Source: Rhodanobacteraceae bacterium (GTDB lineage: Bacteria; Pseudomonadota; Gammaproteobacteria; Xanthomonadales; Rhodanobacteraceae). Taken from it: a DNA stretch of 64,000 bases. The stretch is from the NCBI GenBank assembly GCA_027019085.1, contig JALUXG010000039.1:62001-126000 (forward strand), in the 5' to 3' direction. A program made the translations under genes and the position numbers. Positions 1 to 10,319 of this stretch are shown here, in pieces. The number at the start of each line of letters is the position of its first letter. The first letter of the stretch is position 1. Under the pieces are notes generated by a model. It did not search any database. It was given only the letters and a program-made list of their open reading frames with translations, and had not been told where the DNA came from.

Positions 1-2697
1 AGCAACGCGTTGCTGGTGACGTCCGATGGCTTGTCGGCACGGGTGGGTTCGCTGTCGGCGGACCTGGAGCGCTTCATGCCCTGGCGCACGACGGACGGTC
101 GGCAGATCGAGCCCAAGGGATCGCCGGAACTGGCGACGTTGATCGAGGGCGTGTTCGAAAAGCATCGGTTCCTTCAACTGCTGCGCCGATTCACGGTGTT
201 TGGCGAATCAAGTAGTGGGCTGGTCAAGATTGTGGCTGGTTATCACCAGTACCACGCGGTGCGAAAGGCAGTGGCGTCAACGCTCCGTGCTAGTCAGTCT
301 GATTGGCAGGCGGAGGATCCGGCCGAATACGGTTTGCCCGGCGTCGACAGCCAGCCGGCGGGTGATCGCAAGGCCGGTGTGATCTGGCATACGCAGGGCT
401 CCGGGAAGAGCCTGTTGATGGCCTTCTACGCGGGCATGCTGGTGGCCGAGCCGCGCATGGCCAACCCCACGCTGGTGGTCCTCACCGATCGCAATGATCT
501 GGATGATCAGCTCTTTACCACCTTTGCCATGTGCAAGGACCTGATCCGGCAGACGCCGGTGCAGGCCGAGGACCGGGAGCATCTGCGCAGCTTGCTCAAC
601 CGTGCGTCCGGTGGCGTGATCTTCACCACCCTGCAGAAGTTTTCGCCTCAGCCCGGAGAGACCGAATTTCCGGTGCTGACGGAGCGCTCCAACGTGATCG
701 TCATCGCCGACGAAGCGCATCGCAGCCAGTACGGGTTCAAGGCCAAGGTGGCGGGCAAGACCGGCGAGATCGGCTACGGGTTTGCCAAGTACCTGCGAGA
801 TGCGCTGCCGCACGCGTCGTTCATCGGCTTCACCGGCACGCCGATTGAAGCGAGCGACGTCAACACGCCGGCCGTGTTCGGCCATTACATCGACATCTAC
901 GACATCAGCCGGGCGGTGGAAGACGGCGCCACGGTGCCAATCTATTACGAATCCCGTTTGGCGCGCATCCAGCTGGACGAGGATGAGAAACCGCGCATCG
1001 ATGCCGAGATCGAAGCGTTGCTGGAGGATGACGACGAGGCCAGCGCCGAGCGCACCAAGCAGAAGTGGAGCACCGTCGAGACCCTGGTAGGCAGCCCCAG
1101 GCGTTTGGCCCTGGTGGCCGCCGATCTGGTGCAGCATTTCGAGGACCGCGTGGCGGCGCTCGACGGCAAGGCCATGGTGGTGTGCATGAGCCGGCGCATC
1201 TGCGTGGCCTTGTACGACGAGATCATCAAGCTGCGCCCGGACTGGCACAGCGATGACGACAACGCCGGCAGCCTCAAGGTCGTGATGACGGGCGCGGCTT
1301 CCGATCCGGCGGCGTGGCAGCCGCATATCGGCGGCTCGACCAGTCCTGGGGCGCGCCGCGATCTGCTGGCCAAGCGCGCCCGCGATCCAGGTGATCCGCT
1401 GCGGATGGTGATTGTTCGCGATATGTGGTTGACCGGTTTCGATGCGCCGAGCATGCACACGATGTACATCGACAAGCCCATGCGCGGGCATGGTCTGATG
1501 CAGGCGATCGCGCGCGTGAACCGTGTGTTCCGCGACAAGCCGGCAGGGTTGATCGTCGACTACATCGGCATCGCGCAGAACCTGAAATCCGCACTGGCGC
1601 AGTACTCAAAACCTGATCAGGACAAGACCGGCATCGATGAAGCCGAGGCCGTGGCGGTCATGCTGGAGAAGTACGAGATCGTGCGCGACATGTTCGCCGC
1701 ACAGGGAAGTGCAAGTGTCGCGGGAGGCAGGATGCCGGGAGCGACCCACGGTTTCGACTACCGCAGCGCGTTGGGTGGCACACCGGGCGAACGGTTGGCG
1801 ATGATGGCGGGCGCTATCGAGTGGATTCTCGATAAGCAGCAGCAGTGGGCGGCTGCGGAGAAGACCAAGGAAGCCAAGAAGCAGGCGCAGCGGCGCTTCG
1901 CGGATGGCGTGCTGGCCTTGTCCAAGGCGTTTGCCCTGGCGGCCAGTTCGGATGAAGCGAAGGGTATCCGCGAAGAAGTCGGTTTCTTTCAGGCGATCCG
2001 CGCTGCGCTCGTCAAAACGGCTGCCGGATCAGGCACGGCGCAGAAAGACCGTGAACTGGCGATCCAACAGATCGTCAGTCGCGCGGTGGTCTCCACCGAG
2101 ATTGTCGACATCCTGGCGGCGGCTGGCATCCAGTCACCGGACATCTCCATTCTGTCGGACGAATTCCTGGCCGAAGTCCAGCAGATGGAGAAGAAGAACT
2201 TGGGGCTTGAGGCGCTGCGCAAGCTGCTCAACGACAGCATCCGATCCCGCACCCGGACCAACGTGGTCGAAACGCGTGCCTTCTCCCAGCGGCTGGAGGA
2301 TGCCATTGCGCGCTATCACGCCAACGCCATCACCACGGCCGAAGTCTTGCAGGAACTGATCAACCTCGCCAAAGACATTCGTGCCGCTCGAACACGTGGT
2401 GAGGAGCAAGGCCTTTCCGAGGACGAAGTGGCGTTTTACGACGCGCTGGCCGAGAACGGCTCCGCTGTGGAGGTCATGGGCGATGACAAACTGCGCGTGA
2501 TTGCCCACGAGTTGCTGGTCAGCCTGCGCGAGAACGTCTCGGTGGACTGGGCGCATCGCGAATCGGCCCGGGCCAGACTTCGGGTTCTGGTCAAACGCAT
2601 CCTGCGCAAGTACGGGTATCCACCCGATCTGCAGGACGAAGCGGTGCAAACCGTGTTGCAGCAGGCCGAGGCGTTGTCGTCGAGCTGGGTGGCTTGA
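1..2697 (+). CDS. hsdR: Type I restriction enzyme R subunit, 5' end outside the window
   Basis: This is the ATP-dependent translocase and cleavage subunit of a type I restriction-modification complex. The reading frame is open from base 1 and the start lies upstream, so the N-terminal PD-(D/E)xK nuclease domain is missing here. Counting from the TTG at 10, a Walker A (TQGSGKS, about residues 128-134), motif Ia ([10 protein letters not shown]), a DEAH box (234-237), TGTP (275-278) and the motif V/VI block ([10 protein letters not shown] then QAIARVNR) are present in superfamily 2 order. The C-terminal helical region that contacts the methylase core follows. The hsdM and hsdS genes are not in the window and, if present, lie upstream. 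The frame is intact to a TGA, so the visible part is not decayed. Confidence 0.95.
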
Positions 2698-2830: not shown

Positions 2831-2842
2831 AGTGAAATTTCA
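2831..2842 (+). promoter_or_regulatory. Palindrome at the start of the DUF3883 gene
   Basis: A perfect 10-base palindrome TGAAATTTCA (2833-2842) preceded by AG overlaps the ATG of the DUF3883 gene. Its half-site AGTGAAATT is the same as that in the inverted repeat upstream of the Fic gene at 4037-4069. It could be an operator or chance in an AT-rich gap. The gap itself (2698-2841) shows no other clear feature. Confidence 0.3.
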
Positions 2843-3684
2843 TGCCAACTAAGCCTTGGACTCGCGAGGAAGTCGAAGCAGCAGTGGCCGACTACCGGCG
2901 CATGCTCATTCAGGAACTGAGCGGCCAGAAGTACAGCAAGACCGAGCATCGACGTGCGCTGCAGAAGCTGCTGAATGATCGTTCGGATGGCTCCATCGAG
3001 CGCAAGCACCAGAACATCAGCGCCATCCTGATTGCGATGAACTGTCCGTACATTGCGGGCTACAAGCCGTTGGGCAACTACCAGGCGCTGCTGCATGAGG
3101 TCGTGGTGGCGCAGATTGCCGATGATCCGTTGTTCGATCAGGCGGCACTGCATGCTGCGACGCAGCCTGCGCTGGCGCCGAGTGGGATCGATTTTGGCTA
3201 TTGGCTGGAGGATCCGCCGAAGCGTTCATGGGTGAGTGATCCGGCGGTAGCCAAATCCCCGTCATTTCTGCCAGTACAGCGCGACTACGTGGCGCAGGAA
3301 GCGCGTAATCGGACCTTGGGAAAAGCCGGCGAGGAACTGGTGCTGGCCTATGAGCGTGATCGTCTGGAACGACTGGGCCATGAGGCGCTGGCCGGCAAGG
3401 TCGAACATGTGTCCGAGACACTTGGCGACGGCACGGGGTACGACATTCTTTCCTTTGAACCGAACGGTCGCGAGCGTTTCATCGAGGTCAAGACCACGGC
3501 GTTCGCCAAAGCCACGCCGTTCTACGTCAGTCGCAACGAGGTCGACTTCTCCGAGCGGATGAAGCGGCAATATCACCTGTATCGCGTGTTCGAGTTCCGC
3601 GCGCAGCCGCGCATGTTCATGCTGCGCGGGAACATGCGCAAAAAGCTGAAGCTGGATGCAGCGAGCTATCGCGCGACAGTGTGA
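2842..3684 (+). CDS. DUF3883 domain protein, nuclease-like, next to hsdR
   Basis: This 280-residue protein has a C-terminal DUF3883 domain (about residues 150-260), a family with a restriction-endonuclease-like fold. The likely active-site residues are visible: a GKAGEE helix near 160-165, Asp201 in GYDILSF, and Glu215 and Lys217 in IEVKTT, which is the D...ExK pattern. The N-terminal half (1-120) looks like a small helical domain of the kind often found in these proteins (KHQNISAIL followed by GYKPLGNYQ). It starts 144 bases after hsdR in the same direction. The family is common in defence loci, so an accessory nuclease role is likely but not shown. No signal peptide or membrane segment is present. 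Confidence 0.8.
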   Translation: MPTKPWTREEVEAAVADYRRMLIQELSGQKYSKTEHRRALQKLLNDRSDGSIERKHQNISAILIAMNCPYIAGYKPLGNYQALLHEVVVAQIADDPLFDQAALHAATQPALAPSGIDFGYWLEDPPKRSWVSDPAVAKSPSFLPVQRDYVAQEARNRTLGKAGEELVLAYERDRLERLGHEALAGKVEHVSETLGDGTGYDILSFEPNGRERFIEVKTTAFAKATPFYVSRNEVDFSERMKRQYHLYRVFEFRAQPRMFMLRGNMRKKLKLDAASYRATV

Positions 3685-4017: not shown

Positions 4018-4069
4018 TAATTTCAGATAAAAGCCTAAGTGAAATTAACGACTGCCACTAATTTCACTT
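4018..4069. promoter_or_regulatory. Inverted-repeat operator upstream of fic
   Basis: Two perfect 11-base arms, AAGTGAAATTA (4037-4047) and TAATTTCACTT (4059-4069), are separated by 11 bases. A third half-site, TAATTTCA, lies at 4018-4025. The repeat ends 19 bases before the Fic start at 4089. The Fic protein carries a C-terminal winged-helix-like region, so autoregulation is plausible. Confidence 0.65.
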
Positions 4070-4088
4070 GCTCGCCGAGGGAAACGCC

Positions 4089-5243
4089 ATGCACCGCCAG
4101 TCGCCGGGAACGTACCGCACCGTGCCAACGGCGGATGAGCCGTTTCGCGCCTTTGTACCGGCGCCGTTGCCGCCGGATCCGCCGCTGGCATGGTCGCCTG
4201 CGATGCGGCGTCGTTTCGACGACGCGCTGGTGGCCCTGGGGCGGCTGGATGCGGTGTCGGCGTTGTTGCTCAATGCGGCGTTGGTGCTGAACAGCTTCGT
4301 GCGCAAGGAGGCGGTGCTGTCCTCGCAGATCGAGGGCATGCAGTCCTCGCTGGCGGATTTGCTGCTGTACGAGATCGACGAGCAGCCCAGCGTGCCGATG
4401 GAGGACGCGCATGAGGTCAGCCGGTATGTCGCTGCGCTGGAACATGGTCTGGCGCGCTTGCGTGGCGGTTTTCCGCTCAGCGTGCGTCTGATCAGCGAGA
4501 TGCATGCGGTGTTGATGGATCACCCGCAGGGGCGGTGCAAGACGCCAGGCGAGTTCCGCCGCAGCCAGGTGTGGATCGGCGGGACGCGGCCGGGCAACGC
4601 GGTGTTCGTGCCGCCGCCGCCGGATGCCGTGTCCGATTGCCTGGGCGACCTGGAGCGCTTTCTCAATGATCTGCCGGAGGCGACACCGCCGTTGCTGAAA
4701 GCGGCCTTGGCGCATGTGCAGTTCGAGACCATCCATCCGTTCCTGGACGGCAACGGGCGCATCGGGCGGCTGATGATTGTGCTGCAACTGGTGCACGATG
4801 GCTTGCTGAGCGAACCGCTGTTGTACCCCAGCCTGTTCTTCAAGAAGCACCGCGCGCTCTACTACGAGCTGCTGAATGCCGTGCGTGTGCACGGCGACTG
4901 GGAACGCTGGCTGGAGTACTTCGCCGAAGGTGTCGAGAAGAGTGCCACGCAGGCCGTGGCCACGGCGCAGCATCTGCTGGCGCTGGTCAACAAAGACCGG
5001 AACCGCATCGCCACGTTGGGCCGTGGAGCGGCATCGGCGCTGGCCGTGTTGCAGGCGCTGCAGCGCCAGCCTGTGACCACGGCGCCTGCGCTGGTCAGGG
5101 ACACCGGGCTGGCCATGGCCACGGTGAACCGGATGCTGGTGCAATTGATCGACCCGGGGATCGTGGCGGAGCTGACCCAGCGGCAGCGCAACCGGATCTT
5201 CAGTTACCGCGCGTACGTGGATGTGCTCAATGCCGAGCTTTGA
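4089..5243 (+). CDS. Fic family protein, class II (N-terminal inhibitory motif)
   Basis: This 384-residue protein is a probable Fic AMP-transferase that modifies target proteins using ATP. The catalytic motif HPFLDGNGRIGR is at residues 216-227, with all key residues (His216, Asp220, Asn222, Arg224, Arg227). An inhibitory helix motif S-x-x-x-E-G (SSQIEG, residues 78-83) lies N-terminal to the Fic core, which defines class II self-inhibited enzymes. The last about 70 residues (RGAASALAVLQALQ onward) look like a winged helix-turn-helix. I chose the ATG at 4089 because GAGGGA sits 6 bases upstream; a TTG at 4068 is in frame but lies in the operator. The next two genes run in the same direction and may form an operon with it. 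Confidence 0.9.
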   Translation: MHRQSPGTYRTVPTADEPFRAFVPAPLPPDPPLAWSPAMRRRFDDALVALGRLDAVSALLLNAALVLNSFVRKEAVLSSQIEGMQSSLADLLLYEIDEQPSVPMEDAHEVSRYVAALEHGLARLRGGFPLSVRLISEMHAVLMDHPQGRCKTPGEFRRSQVWIGGTRPGNAVFVPPPPDAVSDCLGDLERFLNDLPEATPPLLKAALAHVQFETIHPFLDGNGRIGRLMIVLQLVHDGLLSEPLLYPSLFFKKHRALYYELLNAVRVHGDWERWLEYFAEGVEKSATQAVATAQHLLALVNKDRNRIATLGRGAASALAVLQALQRQPVTTAPALVRDTGLAMATVNRMLVQLIDPGIVAELTQRQRNRIFSYRAYVDVLNAEL

Positions 5244-5310: not shown

Positions 5311-5727
5311 ATGGAAAAGCATCTGGAGTATTTTCTGATATGCAACTGGAACCAGACCGCACTGAGCCAGGATTTTCTGATCCACGAAAAAGACGAGCCG
5401 GTGGGTCAGCAATACGCGACTGTCGCGGGTCCCATCGAGATCCGCGCTGTCAGCCGTGGCCGCAAGCGTCTACTGGTGGTGGAGCTCAAGCGAGATCGTG
5501 CCACGAACGTGGTCGTGGGGCAGACCTTGCGCAACATGGGATACGTCAAAGAGCAGATTACCGAGCTCGATCAGATGGTGGAGGATGCGATTATCGCGTC
5601 GGTGGATGATCTAAAATTGCGCTGGGCGCTGTCGGCGGTCCAGCGCGTCGGGTTTTACCGCTATCAGGTCGACTTCAAGTTGGTGAAGGCGGGAACAGCT
5701 GCAGGCCCAGGCCCATCGGTACTCTGA
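5311..5727 (+). CDS. Small NucS-like (DUF91) nuclease-fold protein
   Basis: This 138-residue protein matches the C-terminal nuclease domain of the NucS/DUF91 family. It has the VVELKR core (Glu58, Lys60) followed by a VVVGQTLRNMGYVK segment with Gln71, and a FYRYQVDFKLV strand near the end. The Asp normally seen in the IDL strand is replaced by Glu43 (PIEIRAV), so catalytic competence is uncertain. It lacks the N-terminal DNA-binding domain of full NucS mismatch nucleases. An in-frame TAA lies just upstream of the ATG, which fixes the start. The best GGAGG is 15 bases away, so translation may depend on upstream translation. It follows the Fic gene by 67 bases and is one base from the next Fic gene. 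Confidence 0.75.
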   Translation: MEKHLEYFLICNWNQTALSQDFLIHEKDEPVGQQYATVAGPIEIRAVSRGRKRLLVVELKRDRATNVVVGQTLRNMGYVKEQITELDQMVEDAIIASVDDLKLRWALSAVQRVGFYRYQVDFKLVKAGTAAGPGPSVL

Positions 5728-5728
5728 C

Positions 5729-6346
5729 ATGAACAGCCGGTACGACGCTGGAAGGGATCAAGGGGGATTCGAACCGGGTTCGAACGACCAGGTCTTGCGC
5801 AACAAGTTGGGCGTCACCGACCCTGACGAGATGGACGAGGTCGAGCTGGGTTTGCTGGAACAGCTCTACCAGGCCGTGCTGGTGGCGGATTTTCCCGATC
5901 GAACATTGCGCGTTGTCGATATCAAAACCTGGCACCGACGCTGGCTGGGTAATGTGTACGACTGGGCCGGCGCAGGGCGCTCGGTCAACATGGGTAAGGG
6001 AGACTTCCAGTTTGCCGCTGCCGCGCAGATTCCACGTTTGCTGACGGTGTTCGAGCGCGACTGCCTGGTGCGCTACACGCCTTGCCATGATCTCGGCGAG
6101 CCGGCGTTGACCGAGGCGGTGGCCGTGACCCATGTGGAATTCATCCTGATCCACCCCTTTCGCGAGGGTAACGGTCGCCTGTCGCGCCTCCTGGCCGATG
6201 TCATGATGGTGCAGGCGGGACATGAGCCGCTGGACTACAGCGCGTGGGACGCGGACAAGCCAGCGTATTTTGGGGCGATCCATGCCGGCATGGCCGGAGA
6301 CTATGCGCCGATGCGGCGACTGGTTGAAACTGCGCTGGCGGACTGA
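5729..6346 (+). CDS. Fic/DOC family protein, standalone
   Basis: This 205-residue Fic-domain protein carries the motif HPFREGNGRLSR at residues 142-153 with the catalytic His142 and the Glu in place of Asp, within the family norm. The flap region (VYDWAGAGRSVNMGKG, about 77-91) precedes it. No S/T-x-x-x-E-G/N inhibitory motif is visible in its own sequence, so, unlike the Fic protein at 4089-5243, it would need a separate inhibitor. The ATG lies one base after the stop of the NucS-like gene with no good ribosome binding site, which suggests translational coupling. It converges with a 61-codon gene whose stop is only 14 bases away and which may encode the inhibitor. The target protein is unknown. 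Confidence 0.88.
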   Translation: MNSRYDAGRDQGGFEPGSNDQVLRNKLGVTDPDEMDEVELGLLEQLYQAVLVADFPDRTLRVVDIKTWHRRWLGNVYDWAGAGRSVNMGKGDFQFAAAAQIPRLLTVFERDCLVRYTPCHDLGEPALTEAVAVTHVEFILIHPFREGNGRLSRLLADVMMVQAGHEPLDYSAWDADKPAYFGAIHAGMAGDYAPMRRLVETALAD

Positions 6347-6360
6347 GCGCGGCTCGCGCG

Positions 6361-6546
6361 TCAGCTCGCGAGTGCGACTTTGCGTCGCTTGGGATTCTTG
6401 CTGCGCAGGGTGTTCTCGATCTGGCGGATGCTCTTGCCCGTCTCGATGGCGGTGGAACTGGCCACCGCACGGATAATGGCCTGCTGACTCGGCGCTTTGG
6501 CAGTGCGGCGCGGCTTGATTGCAGCGGTTGGCTTGGCTGGCTTCAT
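6361..6546 (-). CDS. 61-residue basic protein, candidate Fic inhibitor
   Basis: This is a short basic protein of 61 residues with a Lys/Pro/Ala-rich N-terminus (MKPAKPTAAIKPRR) and a helical second half (QQAIIRAVASSTAIETGKSI). I do not recognise the family. Within the helix, S31-T-A-I-E35-T-G resembles the S/T-x-x-x-E-G/N inhibitory motif of Fic antitoxins such as VbhA, but the residue after Glu is Thr rather than Gly or Asn. It lies tail-to-tail with the fic gene ending at 6346. A perfect TATAAT ends 7 bases before the ATG, so the transcript probably starts at or next to the ATG (leaderless). A second ATG three codons upstream overlaps that element. The antitoxin role is inference. Confidence 0.6.
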   Translation of the reverse strand: MKPAKPTAAIKPRRTAKAPSQQAIIRAVASSTAIETGKSIRQIENTLRSKNPKRRKVALAS

Positions 6547-6553
6547 GCTATTC

Positions 6554-6559
6554 ATTATA
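6554..6559 (-). promoter_or_regulatory. -10 element giving a probable leaderless transcript
   Basis: On the minus strand the hexamer TATAAT sits 7 bases before the ATG at 6546. No convincing -35 element is seen at 16-18 bases. There is no room for a Shine-Dalgarno sequence downstream of the expected start point. Confidence 0.55.
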
Positions 6560-7386: not shown

Positions 7387-7728
7387 TCAGCCTGCTTTGC
7401 GATGTGTTTTTTTCGCCGGTGTCAGGGCGATGTGCAGCTTGCAGCCCACCGCGTCGGCATAGCGTCGCAGTGTGGCCAGTGAGGGGGCGTGCCTGCGGTT
7501 CCCCGCGCTGGATTCCAGGCGGCCCACGGATGCCTGGGCAATGCCCATGCGTTGGGCGACATCGGCTTGCGTCAGGCCGGCCGTGTGGCGCGCACGCACC
7601 AGTTCGGCCATGGCTTCGAATTCGTCGGCCAGGGCGTCGTAGGCATCCTTGAATGCGGGATCCCGGGCCCAGCGCTTGCGCGTGGTCTCGATGTCTACAG
7701 GTACTGGCTTGTAGGCTTCGCGGGTCAT
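7387..7728 (-). CDS. XRE family antitoxin-like regulator (orphan)
   Basis: This 113-residue protein has an N-terminal helical extension (DPAFKDAYDALADEFE) and an XRE helix-turn-helix around residues 45-100 (GLTQADVAQRMGIAQASVGRLE). This layout is typical of HigA-like antitoxins. GAGAGGTG precedes the ATG. No RelE/HigB-type toxin is adjacent: upstream on the same strand lies doc, and downstream is the SEC-C relic. It is therefore either an orphan antitoxin, a regulator acting elsewhere, or the survivor of a lost pair. Confidence 0.82.
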   Translation of the reverse strand: MTREAYKPVPVDIETTRKRWARDPAFKDAYDALADEFEAMAELVRARHTAGLTQADVAQRMGIAQASVGRLESSAGNRRHAPSLATLRRYADAVGCKLHIALTPAKKTHRKAG

Positions 7729-7792: not shown

Positions 7793-8224
7793 TCATCGAT
7801 CGCCGTAGCCGGCCTCGGGTTCGTGGATACGCTGGTCCGTTTTCAGGCGCAGGTGGTCACGAATCCACTCGGCAAAGGCATCCTCGCTCAATGAGCCTTC
7901 GGCCAGGGCGATGTATTGTGGATACAGTTCCAGATCGTCCGCTTCAAGCGTGGCGCCATTGAGCAGCAGGAAGGTTTCGCAGGCGACGGCGGCGGTGCGC
8001 TTGTTGCCGTCGATGAACGGGTGGTTGCGCGACAGGCCGAAGGCCAGGCTGGCGGCGAGATCGGCCAGATCGGGTGGCGGGTTGCCGTAGGCGTGGCGCT
8101 GCTGCGGGCGGGCCAGAGCGGAGTCGAGCAGGTTGTCGTCGCGTACGCCGGGGTTGCCGCCATGCTCGGCAAGCTGGCGCTCGTGGATAGCCAGGGCCAG
8201 GAGTTTTTCAATCCAGATGATCAT
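7793..8224 (-). CDS. doc: Doc-type toxin (death-on-curing, Fic fold)
   Basis: This 143-residue protein has the Doc version of the Fic motif, HPFIDGNKRTA, at about residues 68-78. Its GNKRT sequence replaces GNGR, the hallmark of Doc kinases that phosphorylate EF-Tu in the characterised P1 system. I chose the ATG at 8224 (MIIWIEKLL) because it begins 8 bases after the stop of the AbrB-type gene and matches the usual Doc N-terminus; the longer frame upstream is only read-through of that gene in another phase. It forms a two-gene toxin-antitoxin operon with the upstream AbrB/MazE-type gene. Confidence 0.9.
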   Translation of the reverse strand: MIIWIEKLLALAIHERQLAEHGGNPGVRDDNLLDSALARPQQRHAYGNPPPDLADLAASLAFGLSRNHPFIDGNKRTAAVACETFLLLNGATLEADDLELYPQYIALAEGSLSEDAFAEWIRDHLRLKTDQRIHEPEAGYGDR

Positions 8225-8232
8225 GGCTGTCC

Positions 8233-8454
8233 TTACTGAGCCAGCTTGTGCAGCAGCGTGCGCCGCTTGCGCATGATTTCCTCTGCCACGTCCATTTGCG
8301 CGGCGAGCGTGGGGTCGTAGGCGGTCAGGCGCAGGCCGTCGGGGGTTTCCACGGCATACAGTGCGTCGCCCTTCTTCAGGCGCAGGCGGGTGAGCAGTTC
8401 GCGGGGCAGGATGACGCCGGAGGAGTTGCCGATGGTGGTGATCTTGAGTTTCAT
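8233..8454 (-). CDS. AbrB/MazE-type antitoxin of the Doc pair
   Basis: This 73-residue protein has a swapped-hairpin AbrB/MazE DNA-binding domain at residues 1-48 (ITTIGNSSGVILPRELL, then LKKGDALYAVETPDG). The C-terminal tail (DVAEEIMRKRRTLLHKLA) is the probable toxin-neutralising segment. AGGAA lies 6 bases before the ATG. The gene directly precedes doc. The classic Doc partner is Phd; AbrB-Doc pairs are known in bacteria but less studied. A 16-base palindrome upstream is the likely autoregulatory operator. Confidence 0.9.
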   Translation of the reverse strand: MKLKITTIGNSSGVILPRELLTRLRLKKGDALYAVETPDGLRLTAYDPTLAAQMDVAEEIMRKRRTLLHKLAQ

Positions 8455-8473
8455 GGAAGGTTCCTACGAAGGT

Positions 8474-8489
8474 TATAACGTACGTTATA
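8474..8489. promoter_or_regulatory. 16-bp palindromic operator of the AbrB-Doc operon
   Basis: TATAACGTACGTTATA is a perfect palindrome located 20 bases upstream of the antitoxin start at 8454. Its TATAAC half resembles a -10 hexamer on the minus strand, so binding by the antitoxin would block the promoter. Confidence 0.7.
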
Positions 8490-8615
8490 CGCTTCCCGGC
8501 GTGGTGCGGCAAGGGCAGGCGGGGCGGAGAGGGAGTAGGATTTGGGGCAGGCAGGTGCATGATGCAGGCCGGTCATGGTATCGGTGCTAGGCATGTCATG
8601 GCGATGTATTTATAT

Positions 8616-8673: not shown

Positions 8674-9024
8674 ATGAAGATCACCACGCATACGACAGAT
8701 CATGCGCTCCTGCAGGAGCTGGGTGAACGCCTGGCCAGCGAGCGCCTGGGGCGGGACCTGACCCAGGCGCAGCTGGCAGAACAGGCCGGCATTTCCAAGC
8801 GCACGCTGGAGCGCCTGGAAGCCGGCGCGGTGGCTTCGCAGTTGTCTTCCTTGTTGCGTGTGCTGCGCGCACTGGGGCTGCTGGAACGGCTCGATCTGCT
8901 GCTTCCGGAATCGCGCCCGGGACCGGTCCTTCAGCTCAGGGGCGGGGGGCGTGTGCGCCAGCGCGCCTCCGGCAGGCAGGCGGCCGACACTCGGTCGCCT
9001 GTATCGTGGAGCTGGGAACGGTGA
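8674..9024 (+). CDS. hipB: HipB-like XRE antitoxin
   Basis: This 116-residue protein has an XRE helix-turn-helix at about residues 12-72 (DLTQAQLAEQAGISKRTLERLE). The rest is a basic, poorly structured tail. It is a DNA-binding repressor and the presumed antitoxin of the following HipA. GAGGA sits directly before the ATG. The 3' end overlaps hipA by the GTGA arrangement at 9021-9024, so the two are translationally coupled. Tandem operators lie immediately upstream. Confidence 0.85.
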   Translation: MKITTHTTDHALLQELGERLASERLGRDLTQAQLAEQAGISKRTLERLEAGAVASQLSSLLRVLRALGLLERLDLLLPESRPGPVLQLRGGGRVRQRASGRQAADTRSPVSWSWER

Positions 9025-10319
9025 GCGTCGCCGAAGTGCGCCTGTGGGGCCGCGCCATCGGCGCGGTATCGCTGGATGAGGGCCAGTCCACGGCGGCCTT
9101 CCAGTACCTGCCCGAATTCGTTGCCAGCGGCATCGAGCCGGCGCCGCTCATGATGCCGCTGGCGCACCGCGTGTACCGCTTCCCCGAGCTGCCGGTGGCC
9201 AGTTTCCATGGCCTGCCGGGCCTCCTGGCCGATGCGCTGCCGGACCGTTTCGGCAATGCGCTGATCGATCAGTGGCTGGCGCAGCAGGGTCGCACGCCGG
9301 AGAGCTTCAACGCCGTAGAGCGCCTGTGCTACATCGGTACGCGGGCCATGGGCGCGCTGTCATTCCGGCCGGTGCTGGGACCGCGCAGGATATCCAGCCG
9401 CGTGGATCTGGATGCGCTGGTCGAACTGGCATCGGAGGTGCTTGCCCATCGCCAGGGTTTCACGGTCAGCCTGGAATCGCGCAAGCGCGAGAAGGCGATG
9501 CGCGACATCTTGCGCGTGGGGACATCCGCCGGCGGTGCGCGGGCCAAGGCGATCATCGCCTGGAATCCGGACACCAACGAGGTGCGTTCGGGGCAGGTCG
9601 ATGCGGGGCCCGGTTTTGGCTACTGGCTGTTGAAGTTCGATGGCGTGTCCGGCAACCGCGACCGCGAGCTGGACGACCCCCAGGGCTACGGCGCGATCGA
9701 GTACGCCTATGCCTTGATGGCGCAATCGGCCGGCATCGCCATGAGCGAGTGCCGGCTGCTGGAGGAAGGCGGACGGCGCCACTTCATGACCCGGCGTTTC
9801 GACCGCGCCGAAGACGGCAGACGGCTGCATCTGCAATCGCTCGGCGCACTGGCGCATTTCGACTACAACCGGGCCGGAGCGTATGGCTATGAACAGGCCC
9901 TGCAGGTGATGCGCCGGCTCGACCTGCCCATGAGCGCACTGGAAGAACTCTTCCGCCGCATGCTGTTCAACGTGGTCGCGCGCAACCAGGACGACCACGT
10001 CAAGAACATCGCCTTCCTCATGGACCGCGAAGGCCGCTGGTCGCTGGCGCCGGCCTACGACCTGACCTACAGCCACAACCCGCAAGGCCGCTGGACCGCG
10101 CAACACCAGATGAGCATCCACGGCAAGCGCGATCACTTCACCCTGGCCGATTTCCACGCCTGCGCCCAGGCGGCCATGCTCAAACGCGGGCGTGACAAGG
10201 CCCTGCTCGAGCAGGTGATCATGGCGGTCCGGCGCTGGCCGGAGTTCGCCGCGCAGGCAGGCATGGACGATGCGCTCGCCATGCAAATCGGCACGATGCA
10301 CCGGTTGCAGTTCGTCTGA
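9021..10319 (+). CDS. hipA: HipA-like serine/threonine kinase toxin
   Basis: This protein (432 residues from the GTG at 9021) is a HipA-fold kinase. It has the N-terminal couple_hipA region (SVAEVRLWGRAIGAVSL), the Gly-rich nucleotide loop (VGTSAGGARAKA), the catalytic segment RNQDDHVKN and the metal-binding LAPAYDLTYS. In E. coli, HipA phosphorylates glutamyl-tRNA synthetase; the target here is unknown. The GTG at 9021 overlaps the hipB stop and has GGAGCTGGGAA upstream; a GTG at 9006 is also possible. All catalytic residues are visible, so the enzyme should be active. Confidence 0.92.
   Translation: MSVAEVRLWGRAIGAVSLDEGQSTAAFQYLPEFVASGIEPAPLMMPLAHRVYRFPELPVASFHGLPGLLADALPDRFGNALIDQWLAQQGRTPESFNAVERLCYIGTRAMGALSFRPVLGPRRISSRVDLDALVELASEVLAHRQGFTVSLESRKREKAMRDILRVGTSAGGARAKAIIAWNPDTNEVRSGQVDAGPGFGYWLLKFDGVSGNRDRELDDPQGYGAIEYAYALMAQSAGIAMSECRLLEEGGRRHFMTRRFDRAEDGRRLHLQSLGALAHFDYNRAGAYGYEQALQVMRRLDLPMSALEELFRRMLFNVVARNQDDHVKNIAFLMDREGRWSLAPAYDLTYSHNPQGRWTAQHQMSIHGKRDHFTLADFHACAQAAMLKRGRDKALLEQVIMAVRRWPEFAAQAGMDDALAMQIGTMHRLQFV

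Follow-up and report, generated by a model that had tools for sequence, protein, structure and literature searches.

The small gene that runs tail to tail with fic in the window (the whole 64,000-nt stretch of DNA analyzed here) is, as judged from its sequence and arrangement, a new member of the AntY type, and very probably encodes an antidote that counters the neighboring Fic toxin. Overall, we consider it highly likely that the gene supplies the antitoxin in a class I Fic toxin–antitoxin pair of the FicY-AntY type, a reading that includes inhibition through Glu35 and the Fic residue R153 and a separate leaderless promoter. The system is ordinary in kind and well supported. The additions are a conserved leaderless-type promoter and an association with type I restriction, for neither of which we found a paper on this family in open PubMed Central. 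The single experimental example, FicY-AntY, stands for a coherent group present in many genera, on plasmids, and in viral contigs, for which Pfam, NCBIfam, and PHROGs (26 members scanned) and PADLOC (three scanned) hold no family model.

Table 1. Coordinates of the antitoxin gene, fic, and their neighbors (window positions)
Feature	Position	Strand	Details
hsdR, 3′ part	1..2697	(+)	HSDR_N, SWI2_SNF2, T1RH-like_C; ORF begins before the window, contig C39:61437
PDC-S36 protein with NOV_C domain	2842..3684	(+)	
Second Fic protein, SoFic-like	4068..5243	(+)	ProtAdlyltaseSoFic E 5.6e-45, under the model cut-off; Fic_N + Fic
PDC-S02 type protein, C-terminal part, directly upstream of fic	5311..5727	(+)	E 2.5e-52, profile positions 181-307 of 308
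Class I Fic toxin, 205 aa	5729..6346	(+)	HPFREGNGRLSR intact, without own inhibitory motif
Fic motif HPFREGNGRLSR, H142 to R153	6152..6187	(+)	Conserved in aligned Fics
AntY-type Fic antitoxin gene	6361..6546	(-)	ATG to TGA, 61 aa, motif S31-T-A-I-E35-T
Predicted helix, codons 21-36	6439..6486	(-)	pLDDT ~94-95; S31 and E35 at C-terminal end
TATAAT, presumed -10 box (leader of zero or one nucleotide expected)	6554..6559	(-)	7 nt before ATG

The small protein and the Fic protein beside it

The 61-aa product, MKPAKPTAAIKPRRTAKAPSQQAIIRAVASSTAIETGKSIRQIENTLRSKNPKRRKVALAS, was re-read from its open reading frame and carries the motif S31-T-A-I-E35-T36, as a preliminary description of this DNA had said. 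The same description placed the motif close to the S/T-x-x-x-E-G/N helix of Fic antitoxins. This holds for the serine and the glutamate and fails at the G/N position, where the window protein has T. An alignment of homologs, proposed at that time as a check on the two residues, bears out their conservation: among distinct intact pairs, Glu35 is kept in 35/35 and Ser31 in 34/35 (the exception, L022, has Asn). The residue after Glu is T in 31 of these 35, G in three (L023, L024, L026), and H in one. In the 26-member alignment of small proteins, Met1 and Glu35 are the sole invariant positions.

AlphaFold2, run on 25 sequences, predicts a first helix (residues 21-36) that stops just past Glu35 and thus has Ser31 and Glu35 at its end, a second helix at residues 40-49, and two loose termini. 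We presume the first of these modeled helices to be the inhibitory one. Between the window and Rhodanobacter, changes in the small gene favor synonymous sites (dN 0.22, dS 0.56), and dN was below dS in all five tested pairs of small genes. The protein is identical in genome G021 (listed as same family) and Rhodanobacter sp. FW104-R8, so that the bacterium of the window, whose contig C39 is part of a 2.8 Mb assembly, probably belongs to the family of Rhodanobacter.

The product of fic matches Pfam Fic (E 1.3e-15) and, over residues 1-203, model PDLC04839 of PADLOC, which is for PDC-S04 (E 9e-86), and which we take to be a single-gene candidate there. With HxFx[DE]GNGRxxR intact and no [ST]xxxE[GN] helix of its own, it is a class I Fic (FicT), and H142, N148, G149, R150, and R153 are invariant in 26/26 aligned Fics. 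The earlier statement that this Fic has no inhibitory motif of its own is supported both by its sequence, in which [ST]xxxE[GN] is absent, and by its model (mean pLDDT 88.8), in which the first predicted helix begins only at residue 32 and the last ends at 204. The nearest sequence, T30-D-P-D-E-M, was dropped as a candidate inhibitory helix, as it coincides with the beginning of the first predicted helix and is without G/N.

The Fic model is closest to EcFicT (5jff, the EcFicT-EcFicA complex), Bartonella FIC domains, and VbhT (3shg), and, when the Fic profile is compared with PDB sequences, Fic-1-AntF (PDB 8wt0) matches best. The latter pair, from Pseudomonas bijieensis, resembles that of the window in combining a class I Fic with an S-xxx-E antitoxin, and differs in that antF lies immediately upstream of fic-1. 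According to PMC13327609, E28 and S24 of AntF contact R146 of Fic-1, the equivalent of R153 here. Because R146 pairs with E28, we presume by analogy that R153 of the Fic motif is the partner of Glu35.

Conserved pairing and probable kinship to AntY

Relatives were collected in two ways, through the Fic and through the small protein, and both partners were then examined at each locus. Fics close to that of the window (profile score over 250 bits) were assigned to its clade. A convergent homolog of the small gene was found at all 63 clade Fic loci (35/35 after de-duplication) and at none of the 65 Fic loci outside the clade. The 35 distinct loci include four (L001, L002, L029, L034) that were first fetched through the small protein. 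Each of these has a near copy (similarity at least 0.975) among the Fic-fetched loci, hence a recount of only the loci fetched through Fic, which gave 43/43 (36/36 distinct). Two loci with fic pieces only (L010 and L011) were counted in neither group.

It is important to note that 26 of the clade loci supplied the small-protein profile, so that finding those again is circular, and that the six-frame motif counts are independent of it. A convergent [ST][ST]xx[IV]E motif occurs at 32/35 clade loci versus 0/52 distinct loci outside. The strict [ST]xxxE[GN] consensus is present in a convergent ORF at only 4/35 clade loci because most members carry T after Glu, and the loose pattern [ST]xxxE says little by itself (convergent at 33/35 clade and 4/52 outside loci; upstream within the clade at 12/35). 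An upstream same-strand ORF with [ST]xxxE[GN] accompanies 27 of the 52 distinct Fics outside the clade, and a convergent ORF with this motif or with [ST][ST]xx[IV]E accompanies none of them.

In a set of 369 genomes of the class, fic was detected (E ≤ 1e-30) in 15 and the antitoxin in 27, with all 15 within the 27. One of the 12 genomes with the antitoxin and without fic at this threshold, G215, has a contig that ends inside fic. In the sampled data, the antitoxin occurs alone and the toxin never occurs without the antitoxin, as expected of a type II toxin–antitoxin system. At 11 loci, the antitoxin is kept beside a fragmentary fic, and two of these (L058, L103) simply run off the contig. The Glu was lost in one of 49 antitoxins (35 with intact fic and 14 without), namely from E to A in L053. 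This homolog (L053:1106-2030, motif SSTAIATG) is at a locus without a fic match; the expected place of fic is taken by an ORF that by eye resembles a zeta-toxin type kinase, with hsdS nearby. At L010:3956-4380, a Fic with a large internal deletion adjoins an antitoxin homolog.

Plasmid records were found by the small protein in 10 cases and by Fic in 877, and eight places were opened. A Fic tree was calculated after five of the 52 outside Fics had been dropped (short or with a stop). It places two outside Fics with long branches and no matching antitoxin (L121 and L130) inside the clade, which leaves a single origin of the convergent group unsupported; as the tree is midpoint-rooted, "outside the subgroup" is a safe term and "ancestral" is not.

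The closest published system is that of Y. pseudotuberculosis YPIII, in which the small ORF antY follows ficY and converges on it (Lu et al. 2020, PMC7479194; the paper has "divergently" once, and "convergent" and "convergently" in two other sentences). The same source reports the AntY motif as S22TAIET27, apparently independent promoters for ficY and antY, and in vitro inhibition by AntY of FicY AMPylation of ParE, which depends on dose and is complete at a FicY:AntY ratio of 1:3. Both the published pair and that of the window comprise a class I fic and a convergent downstream small ORF with STAIET, which begins at residue 22 in AntY and at residue 31 in the window. Of our members, 24 carry STAIET, six of them at residue 22 (L013, L028, L029, L069, L093, L101). 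The kinship to FicY/AntY rests on the published motif, residue numbers, and gene arrangement. The excerpts of PMC7479194 considered here say nothing about leaderless transcripts, neighboring restriction genes, or how widespread the family is, and within open PubMed Central we found no other paper with FicY and AntY together. The preliminary description was right that the gene is convergent to fic (the stops are 14 nt apart), whereas its view of convergence as a departure from known class I antitoxins is outdated, given the publication of AntY in 2020 (PMC7479194), and convergence is therefore rejected as a novel feature.

The better known pairs VbhT-VbhA and EcFicT-EcFicA (YhfG) share the inhibitory Glu within [ST]xxxE[GN] of the small partner (PMC3667792, PMC5033356, PMC8401265). 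Unlike in the window pair, the antitoxin gene is upstream, and the antitoxin family is not shared at the profile level. Ye_FicTA of Y. enterocolitica, which two of these papers name, could be closer. Earlier searches for Fic antitoxins looked at the gene just upstream of fic (PMC3667792); with the search limited in this way, the AntY-type group is missed and its Fics look unpaired. PF18495 (VbhA) was matched in 7/200 genomes and PF10832 (YhfG / EcFicA) in 1/185. The genome of the window itself has, on another contig (C53:113979-114053), a weak match to VbhA (PF18495, 24.6 bits, below the cut-off) that is possibly a second Fic antitoxin, of the upstream type.

Three other readings of the small gene have to be weighed. 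A spurious ORF would be in keeping with its 61 aa and with the databases: Pfam, NCBIfam, and PHROGs returned no family for the window protein (scattered matches of one or two of the 26 scanned members, at E 0.008 or worse, are taken as chance), and PADLOC returned no model for the three members scanned. A PDB profile search gave a single match at E 0.4 that was judged to be chance, a fold search with the model gave no significant match (best E 2.9), and no phage record was matched. The spurious-ORF reading is refuted by conservation, and we give it virtually no credence. The protein is conserved beside every one of the 35 distinct clade Fics and also in a MAG labeled Thermodesulfovibrionia (Nitrospirota), and plasmid records annotate homologs as CDS, hypothetical protein. 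The convergent transcript could instead, or in addition, act as antisense RNA on the fic mRNA, as might be expected from tail-to-tail genes that overlap at their 3′ ends in many relatives, and from the lack of any terminator-like site between window positions 5200 and 6900. However, constraint acts at the protein level (the dN and dS values above), Glu is invariant, and the coding parts in the window do not overlap, all of which makes this alternative very improbable. Finally, the small protein may be an antitoxin of the VbhA or YhfG family, its gene having simply been inverted. The motif register is the same, and Glu aligns with Glu in the comparison with a VbhA-like profile. Yet none of 26 small proteins matched PF18495 or PF10832 at E 1, the window protein has no Pfam or NCBIfam match, and profile comparison gave a probability of 10% with the VbhA-like set (six rows) and nil (0.3%, hhalign) with the YhfG-like set (12 rows), while the two sets, drawn from upstream ORFs rather than from PF18495/PF10832 matches, match one another at 90%. 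We regard simple inversion as quite unlikely.

A presumed -10 element close to the start codon

The TATAAT previously noted 7 nt before the ATG is indeed there, and a leaderless-type -10 is common to 13 relatives. Transcription by sigma-70 polymerase usually begins 6-8 nt past the -10, so that with this spacing the message is expected to open with the A of the ATG or with the base preceding it. From the position of the element, the antitoxin message in the branch of the window is probably essentially without a leader. A further in-frame ATG begins inside the TATAAT, three codons upstream of the ATG of the small gene.

For counting, a close -10 was defined as at least 5/6 bases of TATAAT at a gap of 4-9 from the ATG, and members were grouped from the Fic tree into 11 outside a well-supported main subgroup of 24 rows and 22 of the 24 inside it (L030 and L094 are missing from the test). 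Outside the main subgroup, a close -10 is present in 11/11 members, 5-7 nt from the ATG, with TG before it in 5/11. The controls gave 3/92 for neighbor ORFs (Fisher 1.8e-12) and 1/35 for fic starts, where the start was taken as the first ATG and may differ from the true start. Shuffling of the upstream regions of the 11-member group gave a mean of 1.0 and a maximum of 6 over 5000 rounds. Inside the main subgroup, the close -10 is limited to 3/22, namely the window, the Rhodanobacter-type L002, and L013.

The tree-based grouping is a cleaner test than an earlier grouping by hand (with L001 and L002 placed by hand), which gave 16/19 in the first group and 4/23 in the rest. At that stage, L094 was dropped as a near-duplicate, and L030 (GTG start) and L041, L056, L061, L063, and L064 (start not set) were not entered. 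At least two members of the first group that lack a close -10 (L039, L054) are also without an intact fic. Outside these counts, the TATAAT of L010 ends by eye 5 nt before the antitoxin ATG, a further leaderless-type case.

The alternative is an ordinary leader that begins at an unseen upstream promoter, with the TATAAT being accidental. The window site lacks a consensus -35 (a full TTGACA-TATAAT promoter was found 0 times; shuffles mean 0.6), and the window belongs to the main subgroup, in which 15/22 members have a -10 at 20-36 nt upstream and 11/22 have a Shine-Dalgarno-like tetramer. Two observations speak against such a leader: the close -10 of every member outside the subgroup, where the Shine-Dalgarno-like tetramer occurs in 0/11, and the rarity of the close -10 in the controls. 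Moreover, the -10 and its spacing are preserved in the Rhodanobacter-type relative, the Fic of which is 79% identical to that of the window. We consider the ordinary leader unlikely, while leaving it appreciable weight.

Leaderless toxin–antitoxin transcripts have been described for 32/37 pairs in M. tuberculosis (PMC3898074), as has the leaderless regulator paaR2 in E. coli O157 (PMC8630535). If the promoter reading is true, the present case would join them as a Gram-negative type II pair in which the antitoxin is conserved as a leaderless gene. The family appears to hold both leaderless and leadered solutions, and the switch between them is open to comparative study.

Proposed mechanism and the restriction island

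The Fic protein, which we infer to be toxic, would be held inactive by the first helix of the antitoxin (residues 21-36), which would put Ser31 and Glu35 into the Fic active site. Glu35 would pair with R153, the second of the arginines in the Fic motif, and prevent productive ATP binding, and AMPylation of the target would be blocked; the target is probably topoisomerase IV (ParE), or perhaps gyrase (GyrB). The toxin and antitoxin genes would each have a promoter of their own and be read toward one another, with fic probably read together with the upstream hsd/defense genes, and the antitoxin transcribed alone from the close -10.

The gene order on the contig is hsdM-hsdS-HATPase gene-hsdR, with hsdM (N6_Mtase) and hsdS (Methylase_S) upstream of the window, followed by the PDC-S36 gene, the SoFic-like Fic, the C-terminal part of PDC-S02, and fic. 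The PDC-S02 type product (5311-5727) looks as if it derived from that candidate defense protein, or from a relative, by truncation or splitting. N6_Mtase (hsdM) was found on the same contig at a distance of no more than 12 kb in 10/27 genomes with the family versus 0/20 with other Fics (Fisher one-sided 0.0016, rows related). It should be noted that the 12-kb limit was set after the distances, read by eye, were known; at 15 kb, the counts are 11/27 versus 1/20. The 27 genomes comprise 20 that bear fic and seven of the 12 with the antitoxin only, and in several the gene is near a contig end, which hides its neighbors. In addition, PF02384 (N6_Mtase) is not confined to HsdM, and the search for PF01420 covered only the 27 genomes.

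Because hsd genes are repeatedly close, a role in phage defense is testable. One could imagine that the AntY-type pair is part of type I restriction islands as their guard: Fic would be read with the hsd/defense genes and the antitoxin from an opposing leaderless promoter with no need for a Shine-Dalgarno sequence, and a phage or anti-restriction protein that shuts host promoters or normal initiation would shift the balance, so that Fic is released. We think this rather improbable.

A site-specific integrase gene is located directly upstream of fic or its remnants at five enterobacterial plasmid loci (L028, L029, L032, L033, L034). On the far side of the antitoxin gene in the window, a Doc-type death-on-curing toxin and a putative partner antidote are encoded on the minus strand (7793-8560, DOC_P1 E 2.6e-14, and 8233-8454, doc_partner E 1.4e-22, respectively). 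The long ORF at this module starts farther upstream than the Doc match does and overlaps with the partner gene, and the module is adjoined by a gene for an Xre-type helix-turn-helix protein (7387-7728, minus strand, HTH_3 E 7e-8). Further along (8674-10319, plus strand), an HTH gene is followed by what by eye is a HipA-like gene, and a second HipA gene (contig C39:54056-55366, HipA_C E 3e-55) precedes the hsd operon, so that several toxin–antitoxin modules are clustered around the restriction island of the window.
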